DNA from: a virus
Reading direction: 5' to 3' (one strand)
DNA length: 21,444 nt
Virus record (IMG/VR): IMGVR_UViG_3300037296_000253
Span: 1 to 21,444 of that record
Shown: one piece after another, positions 1 to 13,288 of the stretch
Numbering within the stretch: the first letter of the stretch is position 1
Layout of the letters: every line of letters begins with the position of its first letter
Position numbers and translations under genes: made by a program
Notes under the pieces: model-generated
What the model saw: only the letters and a program-made list of their open reading frames with translations
Databases searched by the model: none
Told to the model about the DNA's origin: nothing

Positions 1-109
1 TTGATGCGTTAAATTCCGCAAGTTGCGGAATATGACCGTTTTAGCACTGCCTGGGTATCGTTTGCTTGAACGGCTCAATCTAAAAAGGGTCTGCCCTCAC
101 TGGGGAAAC
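1..109. mobile_element. Right tip of an A-type element lying upstream of the window
   Basis: This stretch matches the last ~110 bases of element A (9957-10067) and of dA (17963-18073), including a 19-bp palindrome at 13-31, and it ends at the attachment core at 110. It is therefore the right end of another element in the same tandem array. No gene is supported in it; the short forward ORF running through is an accidental reading of element-end DNA. Confidence 0.8.
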
Positions 110-133
110 ATCTATTCGACAATGTGCAGGTGG
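110..133. other. Attachment-like core, junction 0
   Basis: First of six copies of an invariant 24-bp sequence beginning ATCTATTCGACAATG. It is followed by GTGG, then T or C, then CGGCT, and in most copies ACTTCACTAGCA. It separates an A-type right end from the left end of element A. Recurrence exactly at every boundary between otherwise different units marks it as the site-specific recombination site. The half-sites ACAT and ATGT flank a 10-bp centre at 108-125. Confidence 0.8.
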
Positions 134-351
134 TCGGCTACTTCACTAGCAAAGAAATGCTTAAATTTCGCTTTCGACCGCCGATGCTCAGGCAAGGGTA
201 ATCAAGGGATTTAAGGATAAGGATTAAGGACAGAACAGAGTCATGCCAACAGGGTTCTTAGTATTAGCCACAGAGGTAGTCAAAAAAACAGCTCTGTAGC
301 CCTCTGATAGCGCGGGTCTACGCCTCAAAACACTAATGCACACAGGGAGCG
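134..351. other. Element A left end, no gene
   Basis: No coding region is supported. The stretch holds the common left end of A-type elements (compare 16786-17003), a purine-rich A/T-rich tract near 205-235 with repeats of the type GGATTAAGGA, and the terminator of the polymerase gene at 282-301. The purine-rich tract is a plausible melting region, but nothing in the sequence proves that. Confidence 0.5.
282..301 (-). terminator. Terminator of the element A polymerase gene
   Basis: On the minus strand GGCT-ACAG-AGCT is followed by G and seven T, about 50 bases after the polymerase stop. The stem is short. In dA (16934-16953) the G-U pair is replaced by G-C (GGCT-ACAG-AGCC), a compensated change that supports a real hairpin. 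Confidence 0.55.
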
Positions 352-1815
352 TCAAAGTTGCTCGATTTCGAGGGTCAAAAGGTATCCGGTATCGGCCTTG
401 ATTCGGCGCTCAAGTTTGGCCAAATCCGGCTTGCCGTGAACGGTTAAACCGTCATGTTGAAGTAGTGCGGCGCTGCCCGCTAATGTCTTGAGCATGGATT
501 GCAGGGCAATGGATTCAGCGCCCTGTAAAACGTGCGCCAGCTTCTCACGGCTGTTCGACTTCAAGCCGATCTCGCGCCCCGCGTCATTAACCAAAACGCC
601 AACCTTTTTCGTTTTGGCTTGGTAGTCCAGCAATACAGCCTTGCCGATTCTGCGAACGTCGCCGTAAAGATCCAGCACCAGGGGCAGGCCGCGTAATCGG
701 TCGGTGGCTTCCAGTCCCAGACGTTGCTCGATAGCCCGTTGATTCTCTTTTGGGCTCTTAGCCAGGGTTGCACCATAGACCACGGCCAATAGCAGAAACT
801 TGGCGTCATCGGTGCTAATGCCTCCGGCGCTGGCGATTTCGGCGCGGGTGGCTTTCTTGTTGTCCAGGTAATGCAGAATATGCGGCGCTTTCTCGCCTAG
901 CCGGTCAGCCATTTGGGCCAATAGCGACCAATGGCAGTTTGCTATATCTACATCGTAGCAGCCCTTCAGGGCCGCTCTACGCACTTCACCAACACACCGC
1001 TGTAGGTTGATCGAACCTTCGGCGTAAAGTCTGCCTGCGTTGCTCTCGCGGTAGGTGGTGGGCAATACAAAGCCGGGAGCGCCGGAACGCTTCGCAAGGT
1101 CAAGCATGATGGACGCCTGATCCCTCGCCATCATGGCGCGGCGCTTTGCTGCATCTTCGCCGGAGTTGGGGCCGCGGCCTGTTCTAATGGCGTCCCATAA
1201 TTCATGTGACCAACGGAAAGCGGCGGCGGGCTTTTCCCTGTCAAGATACGCCTGGGCCGCGTGGTGGAACTTGTGCAGGTTGTCGCCTTCGATTTCTACG
1301 GCGGCGTGGATTTGCTTTTTCTCGAAACGGGTATTTCTGTTTGCAGTGGTGCGCGACCGAATACCATCAACCGGCATTCTGTAAGGCGAACCGTCAGGAT
1401 TTACCAAACCTTTCTCGTTAGGTTCCAGACCGCTCAGGGCGTATTGTTTTGAGTTTTCTTGGTAGCCCATACAGATCTCCTTTGCTCTTTCAGTCATACG
1501 CCAGCCGCCGGCACTATGGCCACGCTTTGGCTTTAGATCCAGAACAAACCATTCTAGTACGGCGTTGGTTTCGGTGAATTGCTTGGCGCTACCAAACATT
1601 GCAGCCTTGCCGCGCCAGTGGATTGCGGAAACATCCTCCACGCCTGAATTATGCGTGAACCTTCCGGCGTGCATGCTCCAAAGTATAGCGGCCATACCCA
1701 TTTGATGGGCTTCATTTAGTGCGCGGAACGCTTCGGATTCGGCGCTTATGTGGCTTGTGAACGCTTTGGGCCTATATCCAAAAACAGTGTTTCTTTGAAT
1801 TTTGGGCTGTGTCAT
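352..1815 (-). CDS. Stand-alone family-A-like polymerase, probable replication protein of element A
   Basis: Product of 487 aa. The C-terminal ~210 residues carry recognisable family-A polymerase signatures. Motif A is YDVDIANCHWSLLAQM at 287-302 (D288, D290). An O-helix-like motif B runs K339 to Y347-G348, with the family spacing K-x7-YG but without the usual preceding Arg. Motif C is QHDGL at 453-457 (D455). No exonuclease domain is recognisable, and the N-terminal ~270 residues are unassigned. The ATG lies 4-5 bases after GAGAG. By position it corresponds to the quite different polymerase of element B, so it is probably the element's replication or priming enzyme (inference). Gly after the catalytic HD, where bacterial Pol I has Glu, is closer to single-subunit RNA polymerases or primases. 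The C-terminal third is duplicated in dA. Confidence 0.65.
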   Translation of the reverse strand: MTQPKIQRNTVFGYRPKAFTSHISAESEAFRALNEAHQMGMAAILWSMHAGRFTHNSGVEDVSAIHWRGKAAMFGSAKQFTETNAVLEWFVLDLKPKRGHSAGGWRMTERAKEICMGYQENSKQYALSGLEPNEKGLVNPDGSPYRMPVDGIRSRTTANRNTRFEKKQIHAAVEIEGDNLHKFHHAAQAYLDREKPAAAFRWSHELWDAIRTGRGPNSGEDAAKRRAMMARDQASIMLDLAKRSGAPGFVLPTTYRESNAGRLYAEGSINLQRCVGEVRRAALKGCYDVDIANCHWSLLAQMADRLGEKAPHILHYLDNKKATRAEIASAGGISTDDAKFLLLAVVYGATLAKSPKENQRAIEQRLGLEATDRLRGLPLVLDLYGDVRRIGKAVLLDYQAKTKKVGVLVNDAGREIGLKSNSREKLAHVLQGAESIALQSMLKTLAGSAALLQHDGLTVHGKPDLAKLERRIKADTGYLLTLEIEQL

Positions 1816-1839
1816 AATCTCTCGACTGGTCTAGGTAGC

Positions 1840-1925
1840 ACTTGCTCAGTGAAGGTAATCAGGCAGATTTGCCGTCTAGGACTGATTACCGCGAATTCAA
1901 AGAGCCCCTTAATCGGGGCTTTTTC
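1840..1925 (+). ncRNA. Predicted structured small RNA (element A copy)
   Basis: A perfect 9-bp stem, GGTAATCAG (1854-1862) with CTGATTACC (1882-1890), encloses a 19-base loop. It is followed by an intrinsic terminator, AGCCCC-TTAATC-GGGGCT plus T-run (1903-1925). The same arrangement occurs in every B element between polymerase and recombinase genes, with loop and linker substitutions but an unchanged stem and terminator. It contains no convincing ORF. It is transcribed divergently from the polymerase gene and ends facing the recombinase gene. A role in copy number or in controlling the polymerase is possible but unproven. The 5' end is uncertain; CATAAT at 1813-1818 could be the -10 element. 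Confidence 0.6.
1903..1925 (+). terminator. Intrinsic terminator of the element A small RNA
   Basis: Six-base-pair stem AGCCCC / GGGGCT with loop TTAATC, then TTTTTC. It is oriented for forward transcripts and identical in element B (11839-11860). Confidence 0.85.
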
Positions 1926-1957
1926 GTTTCTAGGTTTCGATTCTACATCAGAATTCG

Positions 1958-2581
1958 TCACGGGTGCATTTCTCCCAACTCCCTCAGCTCCACTTTTACC
2001 GAATGAACCGTGCTCGTGCTGCATCCTACGGTGGTGGCGATCTTGCGAATGCTCCACTTTGCATCAATCAGCAGGTCGGCAATTCTCTTTCGTTTCACTT
2101 CGTCGCGGGGTCTGCCGTGGTACAGCCCTTTCGCTTTGGCCTTCTCGATCCCTTGCCGCTGGCGCTCCCGTTTCAGGTCGTAATCAGTGCGGGCCATGGC
2201 TGCGGCCATATCCAGCAACATCTCGTTGATAGAGCTCAGCATCCAATCATTAGCGCCGGTCAGGACTTGGTGGGTGGTCGGCAGGTCAGCGGCAACAATG
2301 CACACGCCACGGCTGCGGATTTCAGCGCGTAGCAGCTCCCACGCCGCACGCGGTAAGCGGGTGAGCCTGTCCACGGATTCAACCAGCAGCACATCACCGG
2401 CTTGGCAGTCACTCAGCAGGCAGCGCAATTCGGGCCGGTCTGCGGTGGCTCCGCTGGCGTTCTCTGCGTAGGTTGCGGCGATCCTTTGCCCACGGTCAGC
2501 ACAGAACGCTTTAAGCTGCTCAGCGGCGCGTGTGGCGTCTTGCTCGGTGGTGCTTGCTCGCAGGTAGGCGCGAATAAACAT
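1958..2581 (-). CDS. Serine recombinase (resolvase/invertase family)
   Basis: Product of 207 aa from the ATG at 2581, the usual N-terminus for this family (MFIRAYLRAST...). An upstream in-frame extension to 2692 runs through non-coding-looking DNA. The catalytic Ser is S10 in YLRAST, and the arginine-bearing motif SVDRLTR (R72, R75) is intact. The C-terminus carries a resolvase-type helix-turn-helix (KWSIRKIATTVGCSTSTVHS). The length is that of a small resolvase rather than a large serine integrase. It therefore more likely resolves multimers or tandem copies than integrates the element, although element A has no other recombinase. It ends about 30 bases beyond the small RNA terminator and converges on it. 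In element B this slot holds a tyrosine recombinase on the opposite strand. Confidence 0.9.
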   Translation of the reverse strand: MFIRAYLRASTTEQDATRAAEQLKAFCADRGQRIAATYAENASGATADRPELRCLLSDCQAGDVLLVESVDRLTRLPRAAWELLRAEIRSRGVCIVAADLPTTHQVLTGANDWMLSSINEMLLDMAAAMARTDYDLKRERQRQGIEKAKAKGLYHGRPRDEVKRKRIADLLIDAKWSIRKIATTVGCSTSTVHSVKVELRELGEMHP

Positions 2582-2694
2582 AGCGGCTCGCTTTAGGTGG
2601 TCAGCGGCTAATCTATCGTTAAAGGTCGGCGGTAAGTAGATATAGCGGGGCGTGATTTTGTAGGTTTTGGCTATCGGCTGGGGCATGCCCAAAC

Positions 2695-2728
2695 AAAAAA
2701 GCCCCGCACAGCATCACGCAGGCGGGGC
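2695..2728 (-). terminator. Terminator of the capsid operon
   Basis: On the minus strand GCCCCGC ... GCGGGGC forms a perfect 7-bp stem with a 14-base loop, followed by six T. It lies downstream of the connector gene and upstream of the recombinase, so it separates the head operon from the recombinase. Confidence 0.85.
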
Positions 2729-2891
2729 CGGGTGCCCGTTCAGAATCGCTCTGTCGGGCTTACGTGTCGCCGGCCACAGGTATCCACTGAGGAGAAAGGC
2801 CGCACACGTTCACGGGGTTTTTTTATGTGAAGGCACTGCCCGTGTAATCCTTCCCCTGATTACCCTCTCGGGCCGCTCAGGGCGCGGAACA
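2729..2891. other. Gap between capsid operon and its terminator
   Basis: About 160 bases with no supported gene. It contains the inverted pair GTAATC (2844-2849) and GATTAC (2858-2863), a shortened echo of the stem in the small RNA. No recognisable start signal or ORF of note is present. Confidence 0.35.
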
Positions 2892-3176
2892 TCAAAACAC
2901 TTCGGCAGAACGGTACGGGTTAAGCAAAATCTGATAGGTGTGGTTTTTGTACAGCACCTCGGCACTTTGCCGTTCCCTGTTTTCAAACAGGTCAGCGGTC
3001 AGCAGCAGAATGGCGGCCTCGATTGTCTTTGGCATTGGGTCGGGGAAATCGTTGCCTAGATACTTAACAACGTGTTCTTGCGCGGCTTGCCAATATGTTT
3101 CGATCAAAACATCTTCATCAACAGAATTATCTTCGATGCGTAAATGCTGCTTAATGTCTCTCAGCTGTAGGCTCAT
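2892..3176 (-). CDS. Head-tail connector, HK97 gp6-like
   Basis: Product of 94 aa with the N-terminal pattern of gp6-like connectors (short helix LQLRDIKQHLRI, an acidic turn, then a long helix with YWQAAQEHV), matching the family's ~90-110 aa length. Connector rings sit under the portal and join the head to the tail. The start overlaps the large terminase stop as ATGA, so translation is probably coupled. It is the last gene of the head operon; no head-closure, tail or tape-measure gene follows. That would suit an element making a head finished to accept someone else's tail (inference). Confidence 0.85.
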   Translation of the reverse strand: MSLQLRDIKQHLRIEDNSVDEDVLIETYWQAAQEHVVKYLGNDFPDPMPKTIEAAILLLTADLFENRERQSAEVLYKNHTYQILLNPYRSAEVF

Positions 3177-4669
3177 GCAAAAAATACCTCTGTGTTGATT
3201 TCTACCGGATCGGCTGCGGATTGGGCGGCACCCATGGCCATGGCAAGGGCTTGAATACCATCAATGCGGCCTGTTCGGCGCGACTTGTCCAGTTTGCGGC
3301 TACCGGCTGGGTCTTTGGTGGCCACGGCATTGGCTGCGCACATGGTCAGCACTGGGTTGTTGCCGTGAGCCATGCGGGCGTTCAGCAACTCGGCCTCCAG
3401 GTGATCCAGTGCCGGGGCCATATCTTTAAAGCCCTGGCCATGTGGCACCAGCGGCAAATCCAGCCCCAACCTTTCCAGCTCTTTGCTCAGAATATCCATG
3501 CGCCAGCGGTCAAAGGCCACGGCTACCACGTCCAGATCGGCCAGAATTTCGGCCATATCCAGCGCCACCACTTCGTAATCAACGGTCGCGCCTGGGGTTG
3601 TCGTCAAATAACCTTGCGCTGCCCACACGTCATAGGGTGCGCGGTCGGTCTTTGCCCGGTCGAATAACCCTTGCTCGGGTGTCCAGAAATGGGCTTGTAC
3701 CTGCCACACGCCTTGAACTTTGCCCACGATAACCAGGGCGGTCAGGTCAGTGCGGGCCGATAGGTCGAGGCCTGCATACACGGGCCCATCAAACGGCAAT
3801 GGCTCGGCGCTGCAACTCTCCCAAACGTCAGGCGATATAAACGGGCTGTCGAGGCTCACACGCTGATTGAGTAGCAAGTTTCGGGCGGTGTTGCTCATGC
3901 TGGGCATTCGTTCGGCGCGGGCCATTTGTTCGGTTAAGTCGTCCAGGCTGCGGAATATTCCCAGTGCAGGATTGGCCGCTTCCCACGCTTCCGTGTCCAT
4001 CAGGTCGCAACCTTTCGGTGCGGCGTAAACATGGCAGACGGTGCGCGGATCTTTGGAGCGTTGAGCGTCGTCGATCCATTGGCTCAGTAGGTCGGCATCG
4101 TTCGCCGCCTGGGTCGATATGGTAATCAGCAGCGGGCTGTCGTGTGCGCCCTGGCTTGTGGTGATAGCGTCCACAAAATCCGACTGCGGGCCACGTACCT
4201 GGCCAACTTCGTCCAGAATCGCCAGCACCGGGCTCAGGCCGTGGGCGGTTTTCCCATCAGCAGCCAGTGCTCGGAACTCGGTATTCAATGGCAAGCCCAT
4301 CAGCCGTTTACCGCTGGGCATAATGCGCACCAGGCCGGAAAGCTCGGGTGATAGTTGAACCATCTTCGCCGCCAGGTTAAAAACGAGGGCGGCTTGGTCA
4401 CGGCTCATGGCACCGGATACCAGTTGAGCGTTTTGTTTTGCTTCGGGGCCCACCAGGTGCACCAGCAGAATGGCGGCGATTAGCGCGGTTTTTCCGTTCT
4501 TCCTGGCCAGCGACAAAATGGCGCGGCGGGTGCCTTTGGGGTTGTCGTAAATCGCTTTGATAAAATCAACCTGAAACGGTGCCAACTCTAGCGGCCTGCC
4601 CACTCCGGCACCTTCCGGCGTCACGCAGTAGCGGGTTATAAACCGGCACGCCTTTTCGCCTCTGGTCAC
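3173..4669 (-). CDS. terL: Terminase large subunit, HK97 type
   Basis: Product of 498 aa, the ATP-driven DNA packaging motor and nuclease. ATPase motifs: Walker A ARKNGKT (55-61), Walker B ILDE (151-154) and a coupling segment ITISTQA (182-188). RNase-H-like nuclease aspartates: D302 in AGLDLS, D387 in AFDRW and D470 in GRIDG. All expected residues are present and the length is normal, so the protein looks functional. The GTG start overlaps the small subunit stop as GTGA. Together with the HNH gene this suggests cos-type cleavage as in HK97-like phages; I could not locate a cos site. Confidence 0.95.
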   Translation of the reverse strand: MTRGEKACRFITRYCVTPEGAGVGRPLELAPFQVDFIKAIYDNPKGTRRAILSLARKNGKTALIAAILLVHLVGPEAKQNAQLVSGAMSRDQAALVFNLAAKMVQLSPELSGLVRIMPSGKRLMGLPLNTEFRALAADGKTAHGLSPVLAILDEVGQVRGPQSDFVDAITTSQGAHDSPLLITISTQAANDADLLSQWIDDAQRSKDPRTVCHVYAAPKGCDLMDTEAWEAANPALGIFRSLDDLTEQMARAERMPSMSNTARNLLLNQRVSLDSPFISPDVWESCSAEPLPFDGPVYAGLDLSARTDLTALVIVGKVQGVWQVQAHFWTPEQGLFDRAKTDRAPYDVWAAQGYLTTTPGATVDYEVVALDMAEILADLDVVAVAFDRWRMDILSKELERLGLDLPLVPHGQGFKDMAPALDHLEAELLNARMAHGNNPVLTMCAANAVATKDPAGSRKLDKSRRTGRIDGIQALAMAMGAAQSAADPVEINTEVFFA

Positions 4670-5124
4670 TGCATCGTTCTCGGAATCAATTCATCATCCT
4701 GCAAGGCATCACGGGCGCGGGTTTCCAGTTCGGAACCGTTGCGAATGTCGCGGGATTTGCCAACGGTGCTAACTGCATCAACCTTGAGTTGCCGGGCCAG
4801 TGCCAGGGCGCGGCGGGTGGCCTTGTCCAGCAGGGCGCAAGCGGGGTTAGTCGTGCCACCAACAACCATTCCATTGCGGTCGATGTGTGATTCGATGTGT
4901 GCCATATCGCCGTAGGCTCTTGCCAGGTGGCTGGCTAAAATTAAATCGGCATCGTTCCAGGTGTCACGCGGGCGGGCCATGACAATGGCATTCCATAGGG
5001 GCCGGTCTTGCTTGCGCACGGTGACGAACTTGGGCGGCGCAATCGGGCCAAGGGCTGCGGATTGAATCGCGGTTACGGCAGCTTTGGCGCTGTCGGCTCT
5101 GTCTCTTTTGGGTGTTGGTTTCAT
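4666..5124 (-). CDS. terS: Terminase small subunit, P27-like
   Basis: Product of 152 aa from the ATG at 5124; a TTG at 5136 would add four residues but has no better ribosome site. The basic N-terminus and the helix ARPRDTWNDADLILASHLARA resemble P27-family small terminases, which recognise the packaging site and load the large subunit. It lies immediately before the large subunit gene. The packaging specificity of the element would be set here, and a satellite-specific small subunit would let it package its own DNA in preference to helper DNA (inference). Confidence 0.85.
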   Translation of the reverse strand: MKPTPKRDRADSAKAAVTAIQSAALGPIAPPKFVTVRKQDRPLWNAIVMARPRDTWNDADLILASHLARAYGDMAHIESHIDRNGMVVGGTTNPACALLDKATRRALALARQLKVDAVSTVGKSRDIRNGSELETRARDALQDDELIPRTMQ

Positions 5125-5176
5125 AGGTGTTACCAATAAAAAAGGACTGAATCAGCGGTTTTTGCCGTTTCAGTTC

Positions 5177-5488
5177 CTAGTGATTCCAATGGTGGTTTGC
5201 GTCGAGAGGGCGTCCTCGAACGTCACAGCCGGCACTTGATGCTTTGCCCATGCTAACGGCAGTCTTTCGGCTATGGCATGGTGTGCAAAGGCTCTGCAAG
5301 TTGTGGCGGCTGTTGTCGTCGTCATAGTCGGCGCGGCTGTCAACGATGTGATCCACCTGATTGGCTGGGGTTACATAGCCCATCAGCCGGCAGTCGGCAC
5401 ACAGCGGCTCCTCTGCCAGCACTTGCTCACGCAGACGACGCCATGCGGCGCTATTGAGTGGTAGTGTTCGCTTCTTGGGTTCGTACAT
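5177..5488 (-). CDS. HNH endonuclease, HK97 gp74-like
   Basis: Product of 103 aa starting at the ATG at 5488, seven bases after GAGGGG; a TTG further upstream is less likely. It shows the zinc-knuckle HNH layout: C30-x2-C33, D46-H47, N63 and C68-x2-C71-H72. HNH proteins of this class sit next to terminases and assist cos cleavage in HK97-type phages. The first 38 bases overlap the portal gene. In transcription order it lies between portal and small terminase, whereas classic HK97 maps put terminases first. Confidence 0.9.
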   Translation of the reverse strand: MYEPKKRTLPLNSAAWRRLREQVLAEEPLCADCRLMGYVTPANQVDHIVDSRADYDDDNSRHNLQSLCTPCHSRKTAVSMGKASSAGCDVRGRPLDANHHWNH

Positions 5489-6620
5489 CGTCCAGCCCCT
5501 CAATCGTTGGCATGTTCTCTATCTGTCGGGCCTCGCTTTTCAGCATCCATCCGTCAGCAATGGCACGCTCATAGAATTGGGCGCGGGTTAGGCTATCGCC
5601 TCGCAGCAGACCTTCCACGTTATGCTCGACAAAGAACCGGCTAGGGTCATTAATCAACACACGGTTAATGGCCTGCTCCCATGCGACCAGGTGCCGGCGC
5701 AGAGTGTTGGTGACAAAGAACCTCGCCAGCTCCACCACGTTGGAATAGTTCGCGGCTTCCATATCAGCGACCATTACCGGCGGCACTCGAAACAGGCGGC
5801 AACATTCCACAATGGAAAGGCGGCGGGCGGCGATCCAGTCGGCATCCTCAAGGGTCATTGAAACGGTCTTGAATTGGCCACCTTGCGGTAATACAGCCGT
5901 TTTGCCGTGGTTGCCGACACCGGCCTGCCCACTTGCCCACGAATCGCGGATTTGTGCGGCCTGCTCTTTGGTGGTGCCTGGGGGCATCTCGATAACGCCT
6001 GATAGCTTGGTTCCCTGCTCGAACATCTTGGCGCCGTGTGTGCGCTCTGCCAGCGCCAAACCTATGGTGTCGCGTGCCACTTGAATGGGTGAACGTCCGA
6101 TAATTCCATCATCAGAATGGTATTTGACGTGCAGCACTTCATCAGCCAGCAGCCGCTTGGTGTTGCCGCCATCGTCTACCACGTCATAAAGCAACTTGCC
6201 TTTGGCCGTTTTCAGGATCGTCACACGGTCAGGGTGAAGCGGTAGCAGGGCTTCCGGTCGTCCGGCATTGTCACGGACTATCTCGGCATAAGCGTTGCCC
6301 CTCAGCAGCAAATGACGCTGTAGTTGTTCCCGAAACTCTAAAGCTGTCTGGTAATCGTTGGGCGCGTCATGCAGCAGCCGGTACAAGGGTTCGCCGGTCG
6401 CCTTTTCGCGGCCTGTTGCGGTCTTCTCGTACAGGTTCAACGGCAAGCTGCCGACGGTTTCTGATATGGCAGCGACACAGGCATAAACGGCGCTGATACT
6501 CTCGGCGCTTTCGGTGTTGACCATTACGCCAGCAGACTCGGCAGCGGTGGCCAGGTTGCTGTAATAGGTATCAAACGCCGGTGTATTGTTGCGCTGTTCA
6601 CGTTTAAAGGGCCACTTCAT
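5451..6620 (-). CDS. Portal protein, HK97 gp3-like
   Basis: Product of 389 aa from the ATG at 6620. GGAGG lies seven bases upstream, whereas the in-frame GTG at 6626 is only one base from it. The ATG overlaps the protease stop as ATGA. The N-terminal region (SISAVYACVAAISETVGSLP) and the LLRGNAYAEI / PLHPDRV segments are typical of HK97-family portals, the dodecameric ring through which DNA enters the head. Length is normal for the family and there is no sign of damage. Confidence 0.95.
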   Translation of the reverse strand: MKWPFKREQRNNTPAFDTYYSNLATAAESAGVMVNTESAESISAVYACVAAISETVGSLPLNLYEKTATGREKATGEPLYRLLHDAPNDYQTALEFREQLQRHLLLRGNAYAEIVRDNAGRPEALLPLHPDRVTILKTAKGKLLYDVVDDGGNTKRLLADEVLHVKYHSDDGIIGRSPIQVARDTIGLALAERTHGAKMFEQGTKLSGVIEMPPGTTKEQAAQIRDSWASGQAGVGNHGKTAVLPQGGQFKTVSMTLEDADWIAARRLSIVECCRLFRVPPVMVADMEAANYSNVVELARFFVTNTLRRHLVAWEQAINRVLINDPSRFFVEHNVEGLLRGDSLTRAQFYERAIADGWMLKSEARQIENMPTIEGLDDVRTQEANTTTQ

Positions 6621-7129
6621 CGGCACGCCTCCAGGTACAGCCTTGCCAGTGCAATGGCGGGTGATTGCTTGCCACGGACTTGGACGGTGGTGGTGTCATA
6701 GGCCGGATCGGCGGTAATGGTAATCTCGAATAGATCAACGTCGGTCAGGTGGCGGGTTTCGCCCTCCCAACTTTCGCCCTGGGCAATGAAGCCAAACGAA
6801 CAGCCGGCAACGTCACCACGGGCCACCAGAACGGGTAAATCACGGCCTAACTGTGTGTCTGGTAGGTCGATCTCGAAAGCAAGCCCCTGGGCATCTTCTG
6901 ATAGTCTCAGACTACCTGATCCCAGTCTTCCCAATAGGCTGCGGCTATCGTGTTCGTAAATGGCGCGAATTTTGGTTGCCGTATCACTGGCCAGCGTGCG
7001 CTTGAAAGCACCAGGCCGGATAATTTCAGAAAATCCGCCTAACTGGGTCGGTTCGTCAAAGCGGGCCGCGTACCCGTACAGGGTGCGGCCTTTGCTTGTG
7101 ACGACGCTTTCAAGGGCTCGCCGTTCCAT
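6617..7129 (-). CDS. Prohead protease, HK97 gp4-like
   Basis: Product of 170 aa from the ATG at 7129, two bases after the capsid gene stop and preceded by GGAG at a suitable distance; a longer frame to 7186 would run into the capsid gene. The catalytic His is H60 in YEHD and the Ser is S111 in CSFGF, the layout of HK97-type serine proteases. It would cleave the capsid delta domain during maturation. An acidic ITADPAYDTT segment near the C-terminus is also family-typical. Confidence 0.92.
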   Translation of the reverse strand: MERRALESVVTSKGRTLYGYAARFDEPTQLGGFSEIIRPGAFKRTLASDTATKIRAIYEHDSRSLLGRLGSGSLRLSEDAQGLAFEIDLPDTQLGRDLPVLVARGDVAGCSFGFIAQGESWEGETRHLTDVDLFEITITADPAYDTTTVQVRGKQSPAIALARLYLEACR

Positions 7130-7131
7130 GA

Positions 7132-8346
7132 TTACGCTCCGCTGGCTTTCACGAATGCTGCGGCATGGCGCAGGGCAATGTCGCATGTGGCCATGGCGCG
7201 AACTTGGATGCCGCCTCGGCTGTAGGCGGGTTCGGCGTATGGGTTCACCAGGATGTCAATCTCAGACCAAATACCAAGCATTACCTGGCTGAAATCGCCG
7301 TACAGCAGGGTATCGGCTGGCATCTGATTTGTTGCGCCGTACGGCTTGCCATCAATCATGCCGGCGTCTGCCAGGAATCCAGAACCGGAACCGGTCACTT
7401 TCTCAGTGCTGGCCAGGTGAGTGCGTACACCAGGCGCAGACAGGAATCGGGTGCCTTCCAGGTTTTCCAGTTCCAGCAGCTCAGACAGCGCCAGCATTTC
7501 AGCCCAGTTAGTCGGCATTAGCGCGGTTTGAATACCGGACGTTTGCAGGATGCCAGTTGGCTCACCAGATAGGCCTGAACCGTTCAAGATTGCGCTGTCG
7601 ATCTGTTGCGCAATGAGTGCGGTCAGGTCGTCGCGTACAAGCTGCTCGATGCCGGGGCTTGATTGCTGAATAAGCTGCCGGCTCATTTCTGTTTTGCCAC
7701 CGGTGTGCTTCGGCGTCATGGTCACAGAATCGAAAGCCATGGTTGATTCAGGAACAGCGCCGCCTTCCGTTACCCAGCCAAGGCTCATACCGCTACCGAA
7801 TTTCGGCACTGATACGTTGCCTTGCAGGCCGGTCAGGACACGCACGCCTAATTGACGGGCCAACAGCTTGTTGCGCAGGGCGCCAATGTAATCAGCGGGG
7901 CGGTGTTGGGTACCTACCAGCTCGGATGCGCTTGTAGTGTCATTGGCGCGTTGTTCCAGGGCTTGCATTGGAATGAATACACCTTCGGCTTTGCGGCCAC
8001 TGCGGCGCTCGGCTTCCTGGGCATACTCACGTTCTAGTCCGTCGAGGCTGCGGCCTTCCATTTGGGCGCGGATCACCTTCACCACGGACACACCAGCGGC
8101 CAGCTTGTCGTAATCGCCGGTCGCATTGTCCGAAACGGTCACGGCATGGCTGCGGCGTTCGGTGTCTGCCAGGTATTCGGCACGCTCGATTTGCTTCGAG
8201 AAGGCGCGTTCTTCGGCTTTCAGGGTGTCGAATTGCTTTGATTCATCGGCGGAAAGGTTGCGGGTTTCTTTGCCGGCAGCGTCAACCAAGGCTTTCATGG
8301 CTTCGACTTTGGCGGCGCGTTGTTCACGTAGGGCGGATAATTTCAT
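7132..8346 (-). CDS. Major capsid protein, HK97 fold
   Basis: Product of 404 aa. The first ~65 residues form a charged coiled coil (delta/scaffold domain), followed by a linker and the HK97 core with the usual WVTEGGAVPES segment and ILNGSGLSGEPTGIL loop. The ATG is preceded by AGGTGA. It is the first gene of the head operon, about 50 bases downstream of the predicted start site, and ends two bases before the protease. Capsid-forming satellites typically build a smaller head from such a protein; size cannot be judged from sequence. Confidence 0.95.
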   Translation of the reverse strand: MKLSALREQRAAKVEAMKALVDAAGKETRNLSADESKQFDTLKAEERAFSKQIERAEYLADTERRSHAVTVSDNATGDYDKLAAGVSVVKVIRAQMEGRSLDGLEREYAQEAERRSGRKAEGVFIPMQALEQRANDTTSASELVGTQHRPADYIGALRNKLLARQLGVRVLTGLQGNVSVPKFGSGMSLGWVTEGGAVPESTMAFDSVTMTPKHTGGKTEMSRQLIQQSSPGIEQLVRDDLTALIAQQIDSAILNGSGLSGEPTGILQTSGIQTALMPTNWAEMLALSELLELENLEGTRFLSAPGVRTHLASTEKVTGSGSGFLADAGMIDGKPYGATNQMPADTLLYGDFSQVMLGIWSEIDILVNPYAEPAYSRGGIQVRAMATCDIALRHAAAFVKASGA

Positions 8347-8360
8347 TTTGTCACCTAATA

Positions 8361-8386
8361 GCTGTTTGTTTGTAGAAAGCGCTTTC
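8361..8386. promoter_or_regulatory. Operator-like repeats in the capsid operon leader
   Basis: A second, imperfect copy of the box upstream (GCTGTTTGTTTGTAGA, 8361-8376, compare 8411-8426, 50 bases apart) abuts a perfect 12-bp palindrome GAAAGCGCTTTC (8375-8386). Both lie just downstream of the predicted transcription start, a position suited to repression. Confidence 0.5.
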
Positions 8387-8402
8387 GTAATAGGCTCACG
8401 CT

Positions 8403-8432
8403 ATCATATTGCTGTTTATTTGTACAGTTATC
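8403..8432 (-). promoter_or_regulatory. Predicted promoter of the capsid operon
   Basis: Minus-strand -10 TATGAT (8408-8403) and -35-like GATAAC (8432-8427) are 18 bases apart. The start would lie near 8396, about 50 bases before the capsid ATG. The spacer is filled by a LexA-type box. Confidence 0.5.
8412..8427. promoter_or_regulatory. LexA-type SOS box
   Basis: CTGTTTATTTGTACAG fits CTGT-N8-ACAG exactly, with an A/T-rich centre as in gammaproteobacterial LexA sites. It overlaps the predicted promoter, so the capsid operon is expected to be off until DNA damage. Confidence 0.6.
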
Positions 8433-8446
8433 TGAATTTCAGACAC

Positions 8447-8471
8447 AAAAAAACCCGCCGATTAGGGCGGG
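8447..8471 (-). terminator. Terminator after the zinc-ribbon gene
   Basis: Minus strand CCCGCC-CTAATC-GGCGGG followed by seven T. It closes the RHH/zinc-ribbon operon and insulates the capsid operon, which then depends on its own promoter. Confidence 0.9.
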
Positions 8472-8508
8472 CTTGTAAGTCATGGCTTACGCGCTTGTGC
8501 GCTGCGGC

Positions 8509-9300
8509 TTACGTTTGGCGCTGCCAGCTTGGGCCATTTTTGGCAATATGGATTGCTTCTTCGAGTGTTCCAACCATGCCCCAACCTGTCGGGCGATCCC
8601 ATGCGCCACCGTCCAGGCAACGAACGTCATACCGCACGCCGTCGGGGAAATGTTTCAGCCAGCCGGCGTGTTGTGCGTCTTGCTTGGCGTCCCATTCGGC
8701 GCGAGTGCCAGGCTCAATCGTGCCGGCCTTGATATAGCCAGCCATTCGGCGCAGAAAGGCGTCGTATGATTCACGCGGGCTGTCGTCGGTGACGATGTAG
8801 GGGCGATTAAACCACTCACGATGTGAGTCTGGGCGCTCGCTGTTGTCGCACTGGTCAAAGTGCGGCGGTAACACTGGATTGACTGGCACGCCGTCCACTA
8901 CTTCCGGCACCTTGCCGGTTATATAATCTGCATGTATGTCGATGATGCCGTAGTCGCATTCGTCGCACTGGTATTCGGTGCGGCTGATATACAGGTAAGC
9001 GGTCACGGATCGGCCACAGGTCGGACAATCAAAGCCGGCTGTTGATGCGTCTATCAGTTCGTTCTCCTGGCTGGTCACGGTTTGCGGCTCCGGTAGTGCT
9101 TCCAGCAGGTCAGAAAGTAGCTCCCGGGCGGCTAAAATATCCTCCGGGCCTGCAACGAATATCAGCTGCTCGAGAGCCTGCTCAATTTGGCCGGCGATTT
9201 CTTTATGCCGTAAGCCCTCAGCCAGTGCGCTGGTAATGTCTCCGGCTTGGTACCGGCGGCGGCTGTCGGGTGTGCCTGGCAATCTGGTTATGTTGCTCAT
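8509..9300 (-). CDS. Zinc-ribbon protein of unknown function
   Basis: Product of 263 aa that I do not recognise as a named family. Residues 1-75 are helical and acidic. A four-cysteine zinc ribbon follows: CPTC at 92-95 and CDEC at 112-115. The C-terminal 100 residues are rich in Trp and Asp (REWFNRPYIV, WDAKQDAQHAGWLKHFPDG, GAWDRPTGWG). The start overlaps the RHH gene stop as ATGA and has AGGAG eight bases upstream, so the two are translationally coupled. By position between regulator and capsid operon it could act on helper phage, on transcription or on packaging; no motif decides this. The first 22 codons survive in dA, fused to the polymerase remnant. Confidence 0.8.
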   Translation of the reverse strand: MSNITRLPGTPDSRRRYQAGDITSALAEGLRHKEIAGQIEQALEQLIFVAGPEDILAARELLSDLLEALPEPQTVTSQENELIDASTAGFDCPTCGRSVTAYLYISRTEYQCDECDYGIIDIHADYITGKVPEVVDGVPVNPVLPPHFDQCDNSERPDSHREWFNRPYIVTDDSPRESYDAFLRRMAGYIKAGTIEPGTRAEWDAKQDAQHAGWLKHFPDGVRYDVRCLDGGAWDRPTGWGMVGTLEEAIHIAKNGPSWQRQT

Positions 9301-9515
9301 TGCTGCGGCTCCTGAATGGCCTGGGCCAGTTCTTCGGTTTGCTGCTTCTTCAATTCTCTGTCAGCCCACTTTAACGACTGATCCCGCGCCACTTTGCCGG
9401 CGCTGATTACTTCACCAGTTCTCTGCCTGAATGCTTTAACGGCATCTTCCAGCTTGTCGCGGTCTTCCTGGGTAATGTGAATCGTCAGGCTTTTCTTCAC
9501 TTTCGTTGTGGTCAT
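9297..9515 (-). CDS. Small ribbon-helix-helix DNA-binding protein (element A)
   Basis: Product of 72 aa with a beta strand (KSLTIHIT) followed by two helices (QEDRDKLEDAVKAFRQRT and VISAGKVARDQSLKWADREL), the layout of ribbon-helix-helix regulators. Residues 1-59 are identical to the element B protein although the DNA differs at about a dozen positions, all synonymous, so the protein is under strong selection. The C-terminus differs (…TEELAQAIQEPQQ here, AEA in B). A strong ribosome site (AGGGG) precedes the ATG, and palindromes lie in the promoter. Probably an autoregulator or copy-control/partition protein; the partner is unknown. Confidence 0.75.
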   Translation of the reverse strand: MTTTKVKKSLTIHITQEDRDKLEDAVKAFRQRTGEVISAGKVARDQSLKWADRELKKQQTEELAQAIQEPQQ

Positions 9516-9532
9516 GCTTGCGCCCCTGTCAG

Positions 9533-9573
9533 TATCTTATAGACAAGGTATATCTTGTGAGGTTGTGGGTCAA
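9533..9573 (-). promoter_or_regulatory. Promoter and operator of the RHH gene (element A)
   Basis: Minus-strand TTGACC (9573-9568) is a good -35, followed by TATACC. Two overlapping palindromes cover the region: TATCTT-ATAGAC-AAGGTA (9533-9550) and ACAAG-GTATAT-CTTGT (9543-9558). Both have counterparts in element B at 13289-13311, consistent with an operator for the RHH protein. Confidence 0.55.
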
Positions 9574-9597
9574 CTTGTTTTTTGCTTGTGTGCAGCT

Positions 9598-9796
9598 TGG
9601 ACATTTTGTCCACTCTGCTCTTTTAAAGCTTCTGAGGTTTTTGGGGTGGTAGATTTTTCCGCCCCAAATTCCCGCCCAATTTTTCGCCAAGGGTTTCGTG
9701 GGTGGGTGAGCTTTGGACATTTTGTCCATTGCTATCCCGCCGAAACGATCACCAAGGGTTTCGTGGGTTGGCGCTTTGGGCTGGACATTTTGTCCA
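9598..9796. repeat. Three copies of the palindrome TGGACATTTTGTCCA
   Basis: Perfect 6-bp arms with a 3-base spacer occur at 9598-9612, 9714-9728 and 9782-9796. The last two are each preceded by the 17-base direct repeat CCAAGGGTTTCGTGGGT (9687-9703 and 9752-9768). Two copies survive in dA (17720-17734, 17788-17802). Candidates are replication iterons of element A, an operator array or a packaging signal. They lie upstream of the RHH promoter on the minus strand. Confidence 0.75.
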
Positions 9797-9968
9797 TCCG
9801 AAAAATCGCGACCTTCACGACCGCCCGCTGGCGCGTGTGCGATGGGCAGCGTTCTGTTTTCACTGTCGCTTGTAGACAGTGAGCTCACAGGCGCGTGTGC
9901 AGTGTTACGGATTGCTACTTCGTCGGGCGTTGATGGTGCGGCTAGCTGGTAGAGGATTGATGCGTTAA

Positions 9969-9987
9969 ATTCCGCAAGTTGCGGAAT
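9969..9987. repeat. 19-bp palindrome near A-type right ends
   Basis: ATTCCGCAAGTTGCGGAAT has perfect 9-bp arms around one base. It occurs at the same distance from the attachment core in all three A-type right ends (13-31, 9969-9987, 17975-17993) and is absent from B right ends. A regulator or recombination accessory site is likely. Confidence 0.7.
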
Positions 9988-10067
9988 ATGACCGTTTTAG
10001 CACTGCCTGGGTATCGTTTGCTTGAACGGCTCAATCTAAAAAGGGTCTGCCCCCACTGGGGAATGTT

Positions 10068-10091
10068 ATCTATTCGACAATGTGCAGGTGG
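10068..10091. other. Attachment-like core, junction 1 (A/B1)
   Basis: The 24-bp core between the right end of A and the left end of B1. The flank just upstream reads GGGGAATGTT here and at 18074, but GGTGGAAC at B right ends, so strand exchange probably falls within the core. Confidence 0.8.
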
Positions 10092-10321
10092 CCGGCTACT
10101 TCACTAGCATGGACTTTTTTGACGTTCGGACACTTTGCAGGATCGGCCATGGATATGCACCGGATATACCCCCCCAGATGCACCCCGAATCAGGGCCAGG
10201 AATACACCGGAATCAGCATCCCAGAATGGGGCTCTCCTACTGTAAACCCGGTTAGAGACGAAAGTTGTTTATATTCAAACATTTAAGACACCTTTTTTTA
10301 CCCGATAGTTAGCTTATGCAA
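10092..10321. other. Element B left end with degenerate 15-bp repeats
   Basis: No gene is supported in these 230 bases. Three related repeats (ATGCACCGGATATA at 10155, ATGCACCCCGAATCAG at 10178, ATACACCGGAATCAG at 10202) are 23-24 bases apart, about two helical turns. They are candidate protein-binding sites. The first ~20 bases match the A left end; the rest does not. Copies lie at 13439-13668 and 18098-18327. Confidence 0.5.
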
Positions 10322-11590
10322 CTATTTTACAGGGCAGTCAAAACCAGTCTCACGGCGGTACTCTCGGGCCATGATTTCAGACAGCAATTCCGCGTGCTTT
10401 TTGGCCACAATAAACGAATCGTGAACGGGTAAAATTGCAGTCTCTTGCTTCACAAACTCGGCGATTATCCGGCCTGCTATTCGGGCATCTCGGTATTGCA
10501 CGCGTAACGCTTGGCCGGGCTTATTGAACGCTGCGGCAATCGGCTTGTTTGCACTCAGGAACGCGGCCACGGCTTCGGTAACGTCGATGTCTGGGCTTAG
10601 CGGGGCGAACGCATCCCATAGGCAGGCGGGGCGCTTAGGCGGACTTTGGCGGCGATCTAGTGGCAGTGTTTGCCACAGTTCCAACTTGTGCCGGTATTGG
10701 TGCCAGGCTTCCAGCAGGCGCGGATTCTGTCGGGATTGAAGGTGCTGAATTGCTTTTAACGGGTTGTCGTCATACAGCAGTTGTAAAAAAACCAGCTTGG
10801 CCACCTCACGCGGCACGCCTGGCAGGGTGTACGGATCGGCGTTGAGCGGGTATTGCTGGCCAGCGTCGGCGTACATCATGCGGGCGTGCATGGCGGCGTA
10901 GTCCAGTTCAGCCACCGGCTCAAGATTGATAAACAAGCGGCTGCGCTCTGCTTTGCTCAAGTTCTGGGCTTGGTGATACCACCGGCCACCCTGGTTCCAG
11001 TCCTGATTAAACACCCGTTTAACTTGCGGGCTCGGCAGGTGTTGCCCGTCCAGGTGCACATCGGTGTTCATCAGCAGGCGATTAAGGCGCTTTACGGGCG
11101 GCTCAAGTGAGAGAAGGACACGCGCTCCGGTTGTTTTCTGCGGCTGGCCTTTGCTGTCGCGCAATTCGATAACGTGGCGTAGCTCGGGCGCGATGTCCGG
11201 CGCTTCTAGCGGGTCGAGTCGGTCAGCCAGCGCAGGCAGCGGTCGCACTTCGGTACAATGGCCGCCGCCTGGCCGTTGGGACGCGATTGCCTGGGTAATC
11301 AGGCCAGCAGCTTGCAGCGTGTCCAGAATTGCCGGTACGGGGTTTTGGTTTGAAGTGCTGCGGGTTATCAGCAGGCATTTACCCCATCGCATACAGTGCG
11401 CCAGGTTAACGAAAAGGGTCTCGGCGGTTTCGATAAACAGCACGCGGCGATGTAGCTTTTTGACGTGGCCGGTCTGCTTCATTAGCTCGGGAACTTGCAA
11501 CGCCAGGTTTCGGCAGCGTGCGTTTTTACTCTTATCGCGCCAGTGATTTGCGTAGTGGTGGCCGGTCTTAGTGCGTTGTAGAGCCTGCAT
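10322..11590 (-). CDS. Stand-alone family-A-like polymerase, probable replication protein of element B (copy 1)
   Basis: Product of 422 aa. The palm and finger motifs of family-A polymerases are clear. Motif A is AELDYAAMHARMMYA at 227-241 (D230). The O-helix motif has R261, K265 and Y273, the same R-x3-K-x7-Y spacing as bacterial Pol I. Motif C is PVHDSF at 388-393 (D391). The segment GGRWYHQAQN at 201-210 is shared, as I recall, with uncharacterised mobile-element proteins of this type. No exonuclease domain is visible. HDSF resembles T7-like RNA polymerases more than the HDE of Pol I, so RNA-primer synthesis is possible. It has little general similarity to the 487-aa element A protein but occupies the same slot. 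A hairpin sits between promoter side and ATG, and Shine-Dalgarno pairing is poor. Confidence 0.7.
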   Translation of the reverse strand: MQALQRTKTGHHYANHWRDKSKNARCRNLALQVPELMKQTGHVKKLHRRVLFIETAETLFVNLAHCMRWGKCLLITRSTSNQNPVPAILDTLQAAGLITQAIASQRPGGGHCTEVRPLPALADRLDPLEAPDIAPELRHVIELRDSKGQPQKTTGARVLLSLEPPVKRLNRLLMNTDVHLDGQHLPSPQVKRVFNQDWNQGGRWYHQAQNLSKAERSRLFINLEPVAELDYAAMHARMMYADAGQQYPLNADPYTLPGVPREVAKLVFLQLLYDDNPLKAIQHLQSRQNPRLLEAWHQYRHKLELWQTLPLDRRQSPPKRPACLWDAFAPLSPDIDVTEAVAAFLSANKPIAAAFNKPGQALRVQYRDARIAGRIIAEFVKQETAILPVHDSFIVAKKHAELLSEIMAREYRRETGFDCPVK

Positions 11591-11594
11591 TTTT

Positions 11595-11612
11595 TGCCCA
11601 TCAATTTGGGCA
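11595..11612 (-). promoter_or_regulatory. Leader hairpin just before the polymerase ATG
   Basis: On the transcript TGCCCA and TGGGCA pair around a 6-base loop and end four bases before the ATG, where a ribosome site would be. This could limit translation of the replication protein. Copies lie at 14942-14959 and 19601-19618. Confidence 0.45.
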
Positions 11613-11680
11613 GGCGCGGAATTTAATCAATAGCAGGGCTTGTCAATTCAGCTTAAATTAGCCAGTATCGGCCAATAACG

Positions 11681-11697
11681 GTGTACCGATAGTACAC
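11681..11697. promoter_or_regulatory. Palindromic operator candidate GTGTAC-N5-GTACAC
   Basis: Perfect 6-bp inverted repeat with centre CGATA, about 90 bases upstream of the polymerase start. Its GTAC core echoes the GTACC of the iterons at 12804-12940, so the same protein could bind both. Copies lie at 15028-15044 and 19687-19703. Confidence 0.5.
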
Positions 11698-11699
11698 GG

Positions 11700-11720
11700 A
11701 AAAAAGCGGTTACAGCCGCT
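11700..11720 (-). terminator. Leftward terminator upstream of the polymerase gene
   Basis: Minus strand AGCGG-CTGTAA-CCGCT followed by six T. It would stop leftward transcripts coming from the small RNA/recombinase side before they reach the polymerase gene. Copies lie at 15047-15067 and 19706-19726. Confidence 0.6.
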
Positions 11721-11726
11721 GCCGTG

Positions 11727-11757
11727 TTGCCTATCAATTCGCTGTTTATGCTAAACT
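11727..11757 (+). promoter_or_regulatory. Candidate promoter of the element B small RNA
   Basis: TTGCCT (11727-11732) and an extended -10, TGCTAAACT (11749-11757), are spaced 19 bases apart. Transcription would start near 11764, about 25 bases before the conserved stem. Confidence 0.45.
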
Positions 11758-11763
11758 TATCCA

Positions 11764-11860
11764 AGTTTCGCGCCTGCTTAGTAGTGAAGGTAATCAGACA
11801 GATTTCGTCGTCTATCACTGATTACCGCGATTTCAAAGAGCCCCTTAATCGGGGCTTTTT
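11764..11860 (+). ncRNA. Predicted structured small RNA (B copy 1)
   Basis: About 97 nt. GGTAATCAG (11789-11797) pairs perfectly with CTGATTACC (11818-11826). Inside, GACAGA and TCTATC add five more pairs with one mismatch. An intrinsic terminator follows at 11839-11860. Compared with element A (1854-1925) the outer stem and terminator are unchanged while loop and linker vary, and homology continues ~50 bases past the terminator to CACGGGTGCA, where the two elements diverge into different recombinase modules. No ORF is supported inside. Confidence 0.65.
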
Positions 11861-12039
11861 CCGTTTCTATGTTTCGAGTCTACATCAGAATTAATCACGG
11901 GTGCAGCAAGCCAGATTGCACGCGCCAACCACAATGCCATGTATACCCCTTGTATATCTTATACACCTTGTATAACCTGCAACTGTTCGCCTTTTAGCCA
12001 GAACCCGAACAGTTAGCAATCTCAGCAGGAGTACAGGCG
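11861..12039. other. Recombinase gene leader with inverted and direct repeats
   Basis: AACTGTTCG (11981-11989) and CGAACAGTT (12006-12014) form a perfect 9-bp inverted repeat just before the recombinase. The 13-mer AACCCGAACAGTT recurs inside the gene at 12090-12102. An A/T-rich tract with CCTTGTATA twice (11948 and 11966) holds promoter-like sequences. This is a plausible autoregulatory or recombinase-binding region. Copies are displaced by 3,347 and 8,006 bases. Confidence 0.5.
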
Positions 12040-12687
12040 GTGCCACACAACAACTTTGATCTATTCGACAACGAGCGGCCAACCACTGAAACCCGAACAG
12101 TTGAACCGGAATTGTCGATTCTGGGCGGTTCTCGTGTGGCTAACGATGTGGCGCGGGGTCGAAAGTATTTATCGCGTGATGAAGTTATGGCGCTGGTGAA
12201 GGCAGCAAAGAAGAACCGGCACGGCTCCAGGGACTCGCTTATGATCCGGCTGGCCTATGAACACGGGCTGCGGGTGTCGGAACTGGTGAATACTCGGTGG
12301 CAGCACCTAGACCTGTCTGGCCACACGTTCAGCGTCAGCAGGGCTAAGGGCAGCATTGATTCTACGCACCCGCTGCAAGGTGACACCGTGCGGGCCATAA
12401 AGAAGTTTCAGCGCGAACTCAGCCAGTCCAGCGGTCTTATGTTCACCAACGAGCGCGGCGCTCCTGTGTCGGTCGATGGGTTCCGGCGTATGTTCGGCAG
12501 GTTATCCGAGAAGGCGCTCGGCACGGTCTGGAACCCCCACGCCTTGCGTCATGCCTGCGGCGTCCACCTGGTCAACTCCGGCACCGGCATTCGTCAAATA
12601 CAGTCGTACATGGGCCATTCCAATATTCAGAATACTGTCGTTTACACCCAGTTGAGCGCAGCGGCGTTTGACCATATCAAAATGTGA
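12040..12687 (+). CDS. FimB/FimE-like short tyrosine recombinase (B copy 1)
   Basis: Product of 215 aa from a GTG start with GGAG ten bases upstream. The complete catalytic set is present: R78 (HGLRVSE), K103 (SRAKGS), H167-x2-R170 (HALRHACG), H193 (GHSN) and nucleophile Y202 (VVYTQ). The length and lack of an arm-binding domain match the FimB/FimE group rather than long phage integrases. It is the only tyrosine recombinase type in the window and the natural candidate for recombination at the 24-bp core. Its early codons for DLFDNE contain ATCTATTCGACAA (12059-12071), identical to the first 13 bases of the core, which suggests an autoregulatory site or the origin of the core. Confidence 0.92.
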   Translation: MPHNNFDLFDNERPTTETRTVEPELSILGGSRVANDVARGRKYLSRDEVMALVKAAKKNRHGSRDSLMIRLAYEHGLRVSELVNTRWQHLDLSGHTFSVSRAKGSIDSTHPLQGDTVRAIKKFQRELSQSSGLMFTNERGAPVSVDGFRRMFGRLSEKALGTVWNPHALRHACGVHLVNSGTGIRQIQSYMGHSNIQNTVVYTQLSAAAFDHIKM

Positions 12688-12734
12688 TCCTGTCCATGGC
12701 AGCGGCTTACGGCGCTTTGCGATTTCAACTTTCT

Positions 12735-12780
12735 TCAGGTTTTATCAGGTTCAAACCCCATCAAACCCTATCAAATCCCA
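12735..12780. repeat. 10-bp helical-phase repeats, origin-like tract (B copy 1)
   Basis: TCAGGTTTTA (12735), TCAGGT (12745), then TCAAACCCCA, TCAAACCCTA and TCAAATCCCA in tandem at 12751, 12761 and 12771. The period of about 10 bases puts all copies on one face of the helix, as in regulator or initiator arrays. Copies lie at 16082-16127 and 20741-20786. Confidence 0.6.
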
Positions 12781-12803
12781 CCATGCTGGTGCGCACGTCT
12801 GAC

Positions 12804-12940
12804 TGCGTACCTTTGCTGCGTACCAGGGCCGTGTACCAATTTGAAATCTTGCCGCCGTTTGCCAAGTTCAGCGGGCAAAATGCTAACTATTGCTAAGAGG
12901 CCAGTTCGTACCAACAGTTCGTACCAACAGTTCGTACCAG
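12804..12940. repeat. Two triplets of 13-bp iterons with core GTACC (B copy 1)
   Basis: TGCGTACC begins at 12804 and 12817 and CGTGTACC at 12830, 13 bases apart. CAGTTCGTACCAA begins at 12902, 12915 and 12928, again 13 bases apart. Two triplets with the same period next to phased repeats look like a replication origin bound by an initiator. Copies lie at 16151-16287 and 20810-20946. Confidence 0.7.
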
Positions 12941-13012
12941 GCGCAAACCCCACCAAGCCAGTAAGCGGGTGAGCTGCTCACGGTTGAGTGTTCCGGTAAG
13001 ATGGGTATACAT
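12893..13012 (-). CDS. 39-aa small protein overlapping the iterons (B copy 1)
   Basis: The ATG at 13012 has a strong ribosome site (AGGAG, eight bases upstream). The product begins MYTHLTGTLNREQLTRLLAW and ends in a Trp/Tyr-rich tail encoded by the iteron DNA (RTVGTNCWYELAS). It lies 70 bases downstream of the RHH gene on the same strand, so the two may be cotranscribed. The central NREQLTRLLAWWGLRL could be an amphipathic helix. No family is recognised. Because iterons constrain its C-terminus, it may be a chance frame, but the start signal is better than most in the window. Confidence 0.45.
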   Translation of the reverse strand: MYTHLTGTLNREQLTRLLAWWGLRLVRTVGTNCWYELAS

Positions 13013-13271: not shown

Positions 13272-13288
13272 GCTTACGCCCCTGTCAG

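Follow-up and report, generated by a model that had tools for sequence, protein, structure and literature searches.

A tail-less HK97-type head operon in a probable satellite plasmid related to capsid-forming chromosomal islands

The IMG/VR virus record IMGVR_UViG_3300037296_000253, analysed here whole as the window (21,444 bases), contains a unit, A, with an operon for an HK97-type head and its packaging machinery and with no tail or lysis gene. We consider it fairly probable that unit A represents the plasmid form of a capsid-forming satellite, parasitic on the tails of a helper phage, and that two further unit types of the window, B and C, are plasmid relatives of its backbone, fused to A via a common junction repeat. 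Capsid-forming satellites have been described as chromosomal islands and, according to the available part of a report of April 2026, in plasmid form from Vibrio only (PMC13230959); unit A is best read as such a capsid-forming satellite-plasmid (cf-PISP) of a lineage other than that of Vibrio.

Seven intact open reading frames (ORFs), overlapping or closely spaced, occupy positions 2892–8346 of the minus strand and encode the capsid, protease, portal, HNH endonuclease, both terminase subunits (TerS and TerL) and one connector (Table 1). The original prediction, made from the window sequence, took them for a complete and intact head set closed by terminators on both sides. The seven frames are indeed unbroken, but the set is not complete relative to the relatives: a head-closure gene, which comes after the connector in most relatives of the type of capsid-forming phage-inducible chromosomal islands (cfPICI), has no room in A and no match in contigs L003–L010, and a helper would therefore have to provide closure besides the tail. 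Hairpins resembling terminators do lie on both sides; since the scan that yielded them counted 23 such sites vs. 18.4 ± 4.0 in shuffled sequences, they are plausible, not proven.

As predicted, the 9.96-kb unit carries neither tail nor lysis genes. The largest ORF of the window is TerL (498 aa), hence the window has no gene of tape-measure size, and none of the tail, holin, and lysis families convincingly matched the window proteins scanned, the best tail-type match being that of a tail-chaperone family to a 72-aa protein (E = 0.069). Nor were tail or lysis genes seen in the same unit of relatives among the contigs examined and the whole genomes, the latter checked in part. Open frames of 600 aa, present in eight of 82 related loci, provide no census of tails, because the count includes minus-strand frames over head genes. 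Readings of the operon in terms of lysis, defence, or RNA only were set aside, with nothing in their support.

The 82 related loci come from IMG/VR, and 50 of them, the ten nearest contigs (L002–L011) and 40 longer ones of our choice, were scanned for protein families. A TerL tree of 53 rows comprised 47 of the 50 scanned loci, L101, L069, L077, L083, HK97, and the window; L002, L005, and L011, which have no full TerL, and the other 48 genome loci are outside it, and L045 is unlabelled. In this tree all satellites are separate from four tailed-phage TerLs (SH-aLRT 98), in agreement with the earlier view of A as a tail-less, capsid-forming satellite. The window cluster adjoins L013, which carries an integrase and AlpA and thus is an ordinary cfPICI, and the plasmid-type TerLs are nested inside the integrative cfPICI clade. 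The plasmid label, given to 13 rows that include near-copies, and resting on incomplete contigs for L037, L068, and L101, changes six times on the tree, with at least five changes forced by starred branches. Within the limits of these labels, the head cassette appears to have changed repeatedly between integrative and plasmid backbones.

TerL is 99% identical in those of the ten nearest contigs where it is present, and the contigs with this TerL carry four different replication and recombination backbones: a 487-aa protein and a resolvase (A and L003–L006), a 422-aa protein and a resolvase (L008), a ColE2-type rep and a resolvase (L009), and a ColE2-type rep and a tyrosine recombinase (L010). 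Apart from this short recombinase of L010, L002–L011 yielded no integrase or AlpA match, and neither integrases nor AlpA-type excision or regulation genes were matched among the proteins of A. In L002 and L004 an A-type right end is joined to an A-type left end, as in a circle or multimer; the window itself is a linear fragment. More distant relatives include L020, circularly closing through a 63-bp end repeat and carrying Rep3 and a resolvase, and the circular, head-only L036 (10,869 bp, 127-bp end repeat), carrying ParA and a resolvase, with no integrase match in either and no Rep recognised in L036 in the families searched. Rep3 is also present in L068 and L085, and ParA in L101. Over the 50 scanned loci, matches were tallied for integrase (36), resolvase (11), AlpA (10), Rep3 (2), and AAA_31 (1), and integrase and resolvase were found together only in the 40-kb contig L067. 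The chromosomal-island frame of the original prediction is thus not supported, as relatives have resolvases and plasmid genes for initiation or partition where an island would have an integrase. In L068 we also observed direct repeats spaced by about 60 nt (7979–8189), located after the replication genes and before the capsid gene or in the reverse order; these repeats could be iterons.

A replication function of the 422-aa protein of B is best supported by its leader, a 310-bp stretch of which shares 90% identity with the leader of the ColE2-type rep in L009, the identity running 16 nt into the ORF with the start codons in register. Different replication genes thus share one slot and one control region, and since A has a segment of about 100 bp of this leader in common with B, the 487-aa protein of A probably acts in replication as well. 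The shared segment folds on the plus strand with −31.3 (A) and −28.9 (B) kcal/mol, and the leader of A is a candidate antisense copy-control RNA. Homologues of the 487-aa protein are encoded by the small Polaromonas plasmids pW9NP1 and pH8NP1 (40 and 35%, respectively); RepA, ParA, and a recombinase are present on these plasmids too (PMC6015842). The profile of the 487-aa family aligned collinearly with T7/E. coli PolA over 205 columns (P 0.0025, one of 100 column shuffles scoring as high), and the profiles of the 422-aa and 487-aa families aligned over 196 columns (no shuffle out of 100 scoring as high); directly, the 422-aa family had no profile match to PolA, and Pfam, NCBIfam, and PDB sequence searches with both proteins gave no informative match. 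Thus, the earlier label of a family-A-like polymerase retains a weak profile match on its side and has no Pfam or NCBIfam match behind it, and we regard it as plausible, not proven.

The 422-aa protein belongs to phrog_4756 and has relatives in 137 phage records, mostly of Vibrio and Aeromonas phages; one of these relatives is annotated as a DNA polymerase, and several of those shown are hypothetical. Queried singly, it matched L008 only, whereas a profile of two rows matched L008, L068, and L085. In 390 genomes from the order to which Billgrantia belongs, homologues of the 487-aa protein were found in two (best 43%) and those of the 422-aa protein in 13 (best 33%), and neither search points to a host.

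The serine resolvase had been correctly assigned to A, where it probably resolves multimers. This is not so for the FimB-type attachment system, formerly ascribed to the head unit: the FimB/XerC-like tyrosine recombinase is present in B units only, complete in each of the three copies, and no IMG/VR relative of it was found.

Two conserved elements accompany the packaging genes. A motif in the spacer between the HNH and TerS genes occurs in 68 of 118 such spacers; at 116 of these loci, 67 matches fall in spacers (25 kb for all 118) vs. nine in the remaining sequence (both strands, about 2.95 Mb). We read this motif as cos, because the same interval, between HNH gene 74 and TerS gene 1, holds the chromosome ends of HK97 in its record (AF069529); since the motif was defined on the very spacers where it was counted, and overlaps the HNH frame in some relatives, it stays a candidate. 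Its single match in the window lies in A, so that B and C are without it. In the window, as in 13 of 16 relatives, the second element, Proteo-phage-1 RNA, is situated immediately 3′ of TerL or the connectors. It was observed on the 3′ side of packaging genes at integrative and plasmid loci alike (L020, L036, L042, L101, and others).

Table 1. Features of the window (strand as given by the analysis; a dot denotes units without strand).
Feature	Position	Strand	Details
Unit A	70..10025	.	9,956 bp, junction repeat to junction repeat; direct repeats spaced 9,956 bp
First copy of the junction repeat, at the left of A	70..133	+	D6 family, six copies, by alignment
487-aa protein, replication slot of A	352..1815	-	polymerase-A-like by weak profile match
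Replication-gene leader	1848..1968	+	stem GGTAATCAG/CTGATTACC, GCCCC-GGGGC hairpin, T run; common to B
Serine resolvase	1958..2692	-	PF00239 1.4e-26; 51-56% to Pseudomonas plasmid recombinases
Terminator-like hairpin, 3′ of head operon	2703..2722	-	
Proteo-phage-1 RNA (RF03044)	2807..2887	-	47.6 bits, gathering 42; 3′ of head operon
Head-tail connector (gp6-like)	2892..3176	-	PF05135 1.4e-14; TIGR01560
Terminase large subunit (TerL)	3173..4669	-	PF20441/PF03354; phrog_9 1.7e-126
Terminase small subunit (TerS)	4666..5136	-	phrog_5601 1.1e-32
Candidate cos region	5137..5184	-	conserved motif at 5172-5184
HNH endonuclease	5177..5503	-	PF01844 3.5e-7; phrog_2323 2.9e-28
Portal	5451..6626	-	PF04860 1e-104
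Prohead protease	6617..7186	-	PF04586 2.4e-42
HK97-fold major capsid protein	7132..8346	-	PF05065 2.4e-34
Terminator-like hairpin, upstream of capsid gene	8451..8474	-	
263-aa zinc-ribbon-like protein	8509..9300	-	sub-threshold zinc-ribbon matches; phrog_17145 1.2e-8
72-aa small protein (62 aa in B)	9297..9515	-	90% DNA identity with B; no Pfam match; ribbon-helix-helix-like by eye only
Unit B1	10026..13374	.	3,349 bp, headless
422-aa replication-slot protein, B1	10322..11590	-	
FimB/XerC-like tyrosine recombinase, B1	12040..12687	+	
Small protein, B1	13083..13271	-	
Unit B2	13375..16721	.	3,347 bp, same content as B1; 99.8% to B1
Unit C	16722..18031	.	1,310 bp; relative of A with an internal deletion
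Fused 296-aa ORF in C	17004..17894	-	
Unit B3	18032..21380	.	3,349 bp; 3349/3349 identical to B1

In the window, five units of one orientation follow each other head to tail as an array (A-B1-B2-C-B3). A conserved junction, about 64 bp long and present in six copies, likewise of one orientation, separates them (copies after the first start at 10026, 13375, 16722, 18032, and 21381). The predicted 9.96-kb unit is confirmed by the 9,956-bp period, while its supposedly defined ends turned out to be direct-repeat junctions inside this array. No chromosome border lies within the window, and neither a megablast search of phages with unit A nor one of plasmids with the whole window gave a match. Units A and B have three pieces in common, namely, the junction, the gene of the 62/72-aa small protein, and a 123-bp segment (91% between A and B). 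The latter was considered as a recombination site and dropped, as it lies before the replication gene and is present in L009 too. Unit C, in which most of the middle of A is missing, matches A at 95.4% over 760 bp and, at the right end, at 99.7% over 327 bp. A 13-base stretch of the junction, ATCTATTCGACAA, recurs, by eye, at the 5′ end of each tyrosine recombinase gene of B (12060–12072 in the window).

The order of this array rests on one assembly, in which the 3.35-kb repeats are exact and thus beyond the power of short reads to arrange, and a serious contender, one that we nevertheless lean against, is that A and B are separate circular plasmids sharing the junction and leader, which the assembler has chained through repeats. 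The bodies of B are identical across all three copies, every difference between B2 and B1 sitting at the junction end; the right end of A with B1 equals, but for a single gap, the right end of C with B3 over 3,740 bp; and the contig ends fall in repeats, all of which speaks for such an artefact. On the other hand, there is nothing unusual biologically about cointegrates formed at recombination sites that two elements share, and in L005, a contig with another metagenome id, a B-type right end (126 bp, 100%) is joined to an A-type left end. L005 could be a recombinant A, and it lends limited independent support to the adjacency of B-type and A-type ends.

If the array is real, it may represent three tiers of parasitism, in which the headless mini-plasmids B (3.35 kb) and C (1.3 kb) fuse to A at a shared recombination site, A uses helper tails, and A-B-B-C-B multimers are packaged. 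Fusion to A would be required since A alone has the cos-like site and the head genes. We consider this elaboration of the satellite-plasmid reading rather unlikely.

Less likely still, the units could be cfPICI-like islands that have integrated successively at one attachment site by means of the tyrosine recombinase of B, the junctions being att sites. Such a tandem array would account for the uniform orientation of the six junctions, the variation of junction variants in the core, and the complete recombinase in each B, and the sister locus L013 is integrative. However, neither the window nor the near contigs matched to it have a host flank, the right and left ends of A are joined to each other in L002 and L004, A itself has a resolvase rather than a tyrosine recombinase, and relatives have Rep3 or ParA.

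The least probable alternative is a reduced phage-plasmid, that is, a head operon left by a tailed phage-plasmid that has lost its tail genes and makes no particles: the missing head-closure gene and the existence of HK97-like phage-plasmids with related TerL (e.g., one of Pusillimonas, 41 kb, 72.7%) speak for it, but all seven head and packaging genes are intact, TerL is preserved at 99% across metagenomes and four backbones and groups with satellites and not with L077, L083, or HK97, and the cos-like motif and Proteo-phage-1 RNA are conserved.

Several observations weigh against a satellite plasmid as such. Unit A is known as assembled sequence. Pfam and NCBIfam profile searches recognised no Rep or ParA family in A, and no Stl/AlpA-type regulator was matched among its proteins. 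The absence of the head-closure gene from A could mean decay. The ColE2-type rep is not plasmid-specific, being also present in L111, a 166-kb contig of chromosomal size, and in L071, where an integrase matched below the cutoff, and was therefore set aside as proof of a plasmid. Finally, AlphaFold2 models of the replication-slot proteins had a low mean pLDDT (41.9 for the 422-aa protein with three rows and 34.2 for the 487-aa protein with four rows).

Taking all this into account, we suggest the following scheme for the satellite plasmid. Unit A would replicate episomally as a small plasmid from the replication slot, with the 487-aa protein encoded behind the structured leader, and its serine resolvase would resolve multimers. 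Once induced by an active tailed helper phage, A would make its own HK97-type heads; TerS and TerL, together with the HNH protein, may cut multimers at the cos between the HNH and TerS genes, so that the heads would be filled with multimers as natural packaging substrates, and the helper phage would supply head closure and the tail. Units B and C could travel along as cointegrates with A, and, if there are three tiers, mixed A-B-B-C-B multimers might also serve to fill the head.

One head cassette, down to a 99% identical TerL, is thus found on several unrelated replication modules. Plasmid-type members arising at least five times within an integrative clade would make the cassette a movable device that gives plasmids a virus head, and the question then is what range of replicons, helpers, and recipient hosts is able to exploit it. 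Small cargo plasmids could move in particles without phage DNA if packaging extends to mixed multimers.

The closest known system is cf-PISP TG54 of Vibrio crassostreae, published in April 2026, whose authors, in the available text, report no relatives outside Vibrio (PMC13230959). It anticipates a capsid-forming satellite in plasmid form, so that only a part of the novelty claimed earlier stands: what remains new is the lineage with its replication modules, the lack of a closure gene, the recurrent exchange of backbones, and a possible link with headless plasmids. Our literature search, with bioRxiv and subscription papers largely outside it, found no other capsid-forming satellite-plasmid. 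As far as TG54 is described there, it resembles A in being small and tail-less, with cfPICI-related capsid, portal, protease, HNH, terminases, and connector. Like A, it has no classical integrase; it is circular and has plasmid maintenance genes, and A is probably episomal. The differences are in size and backbone: TG54 (15.8 kb) has parA, repA, ProQ/FinO-like and Stl-like regulators, and a closure gene, and its head region includes a tyrosine recombinase (PMC13230959), while A (9.96 kb) has the 487-aa protein in the replication slot and the serine resolvase, is joined to headless units, and has no recognised ParA, Rep, or Stl and no closure gene.

Integrated cfPICIs, e.g., EcCIEDL933 (PMC11389934), share with A the order capsid–protease–portal–HNH–TerS–TerL–connector and Proteo-phage-1 RNA at the 3′ side, and the TerLs of A and L013 are sisters; in contrast to these islands, A is without integrase and AlpA. 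HK97 (AF069529) is similar in TerL (65% identical), the HK97-fold head genes, and the HNH gene and cos beside TerS (a candidate cos in A), but at 39.7 kb it is a complete phage with a tail, and A has none of its tail, lysis, and replication genes. In PICMI, small satellite DNA is packaged as a head-to-tail concatemer (PMC10803314), and A also stands head to tail with other units; unlike A, PICMI, as presented in the available text, has no capsid genes, integrates beside fis, and forms concatemers of one element (PMC10803314). Lastly, the Roseomonas mucosa plasmid pTT14-8 (CP099479.1, L084) differs from A in its distant TerL (31%), its alphaproteobacterial host, an inserted IS21, and another backbone; like A, it has HNH, portal, protease, capsid, and TerL in its annotation and no tail gene, and it is a 16.9-kb circular plasmid of a cultured isolate.

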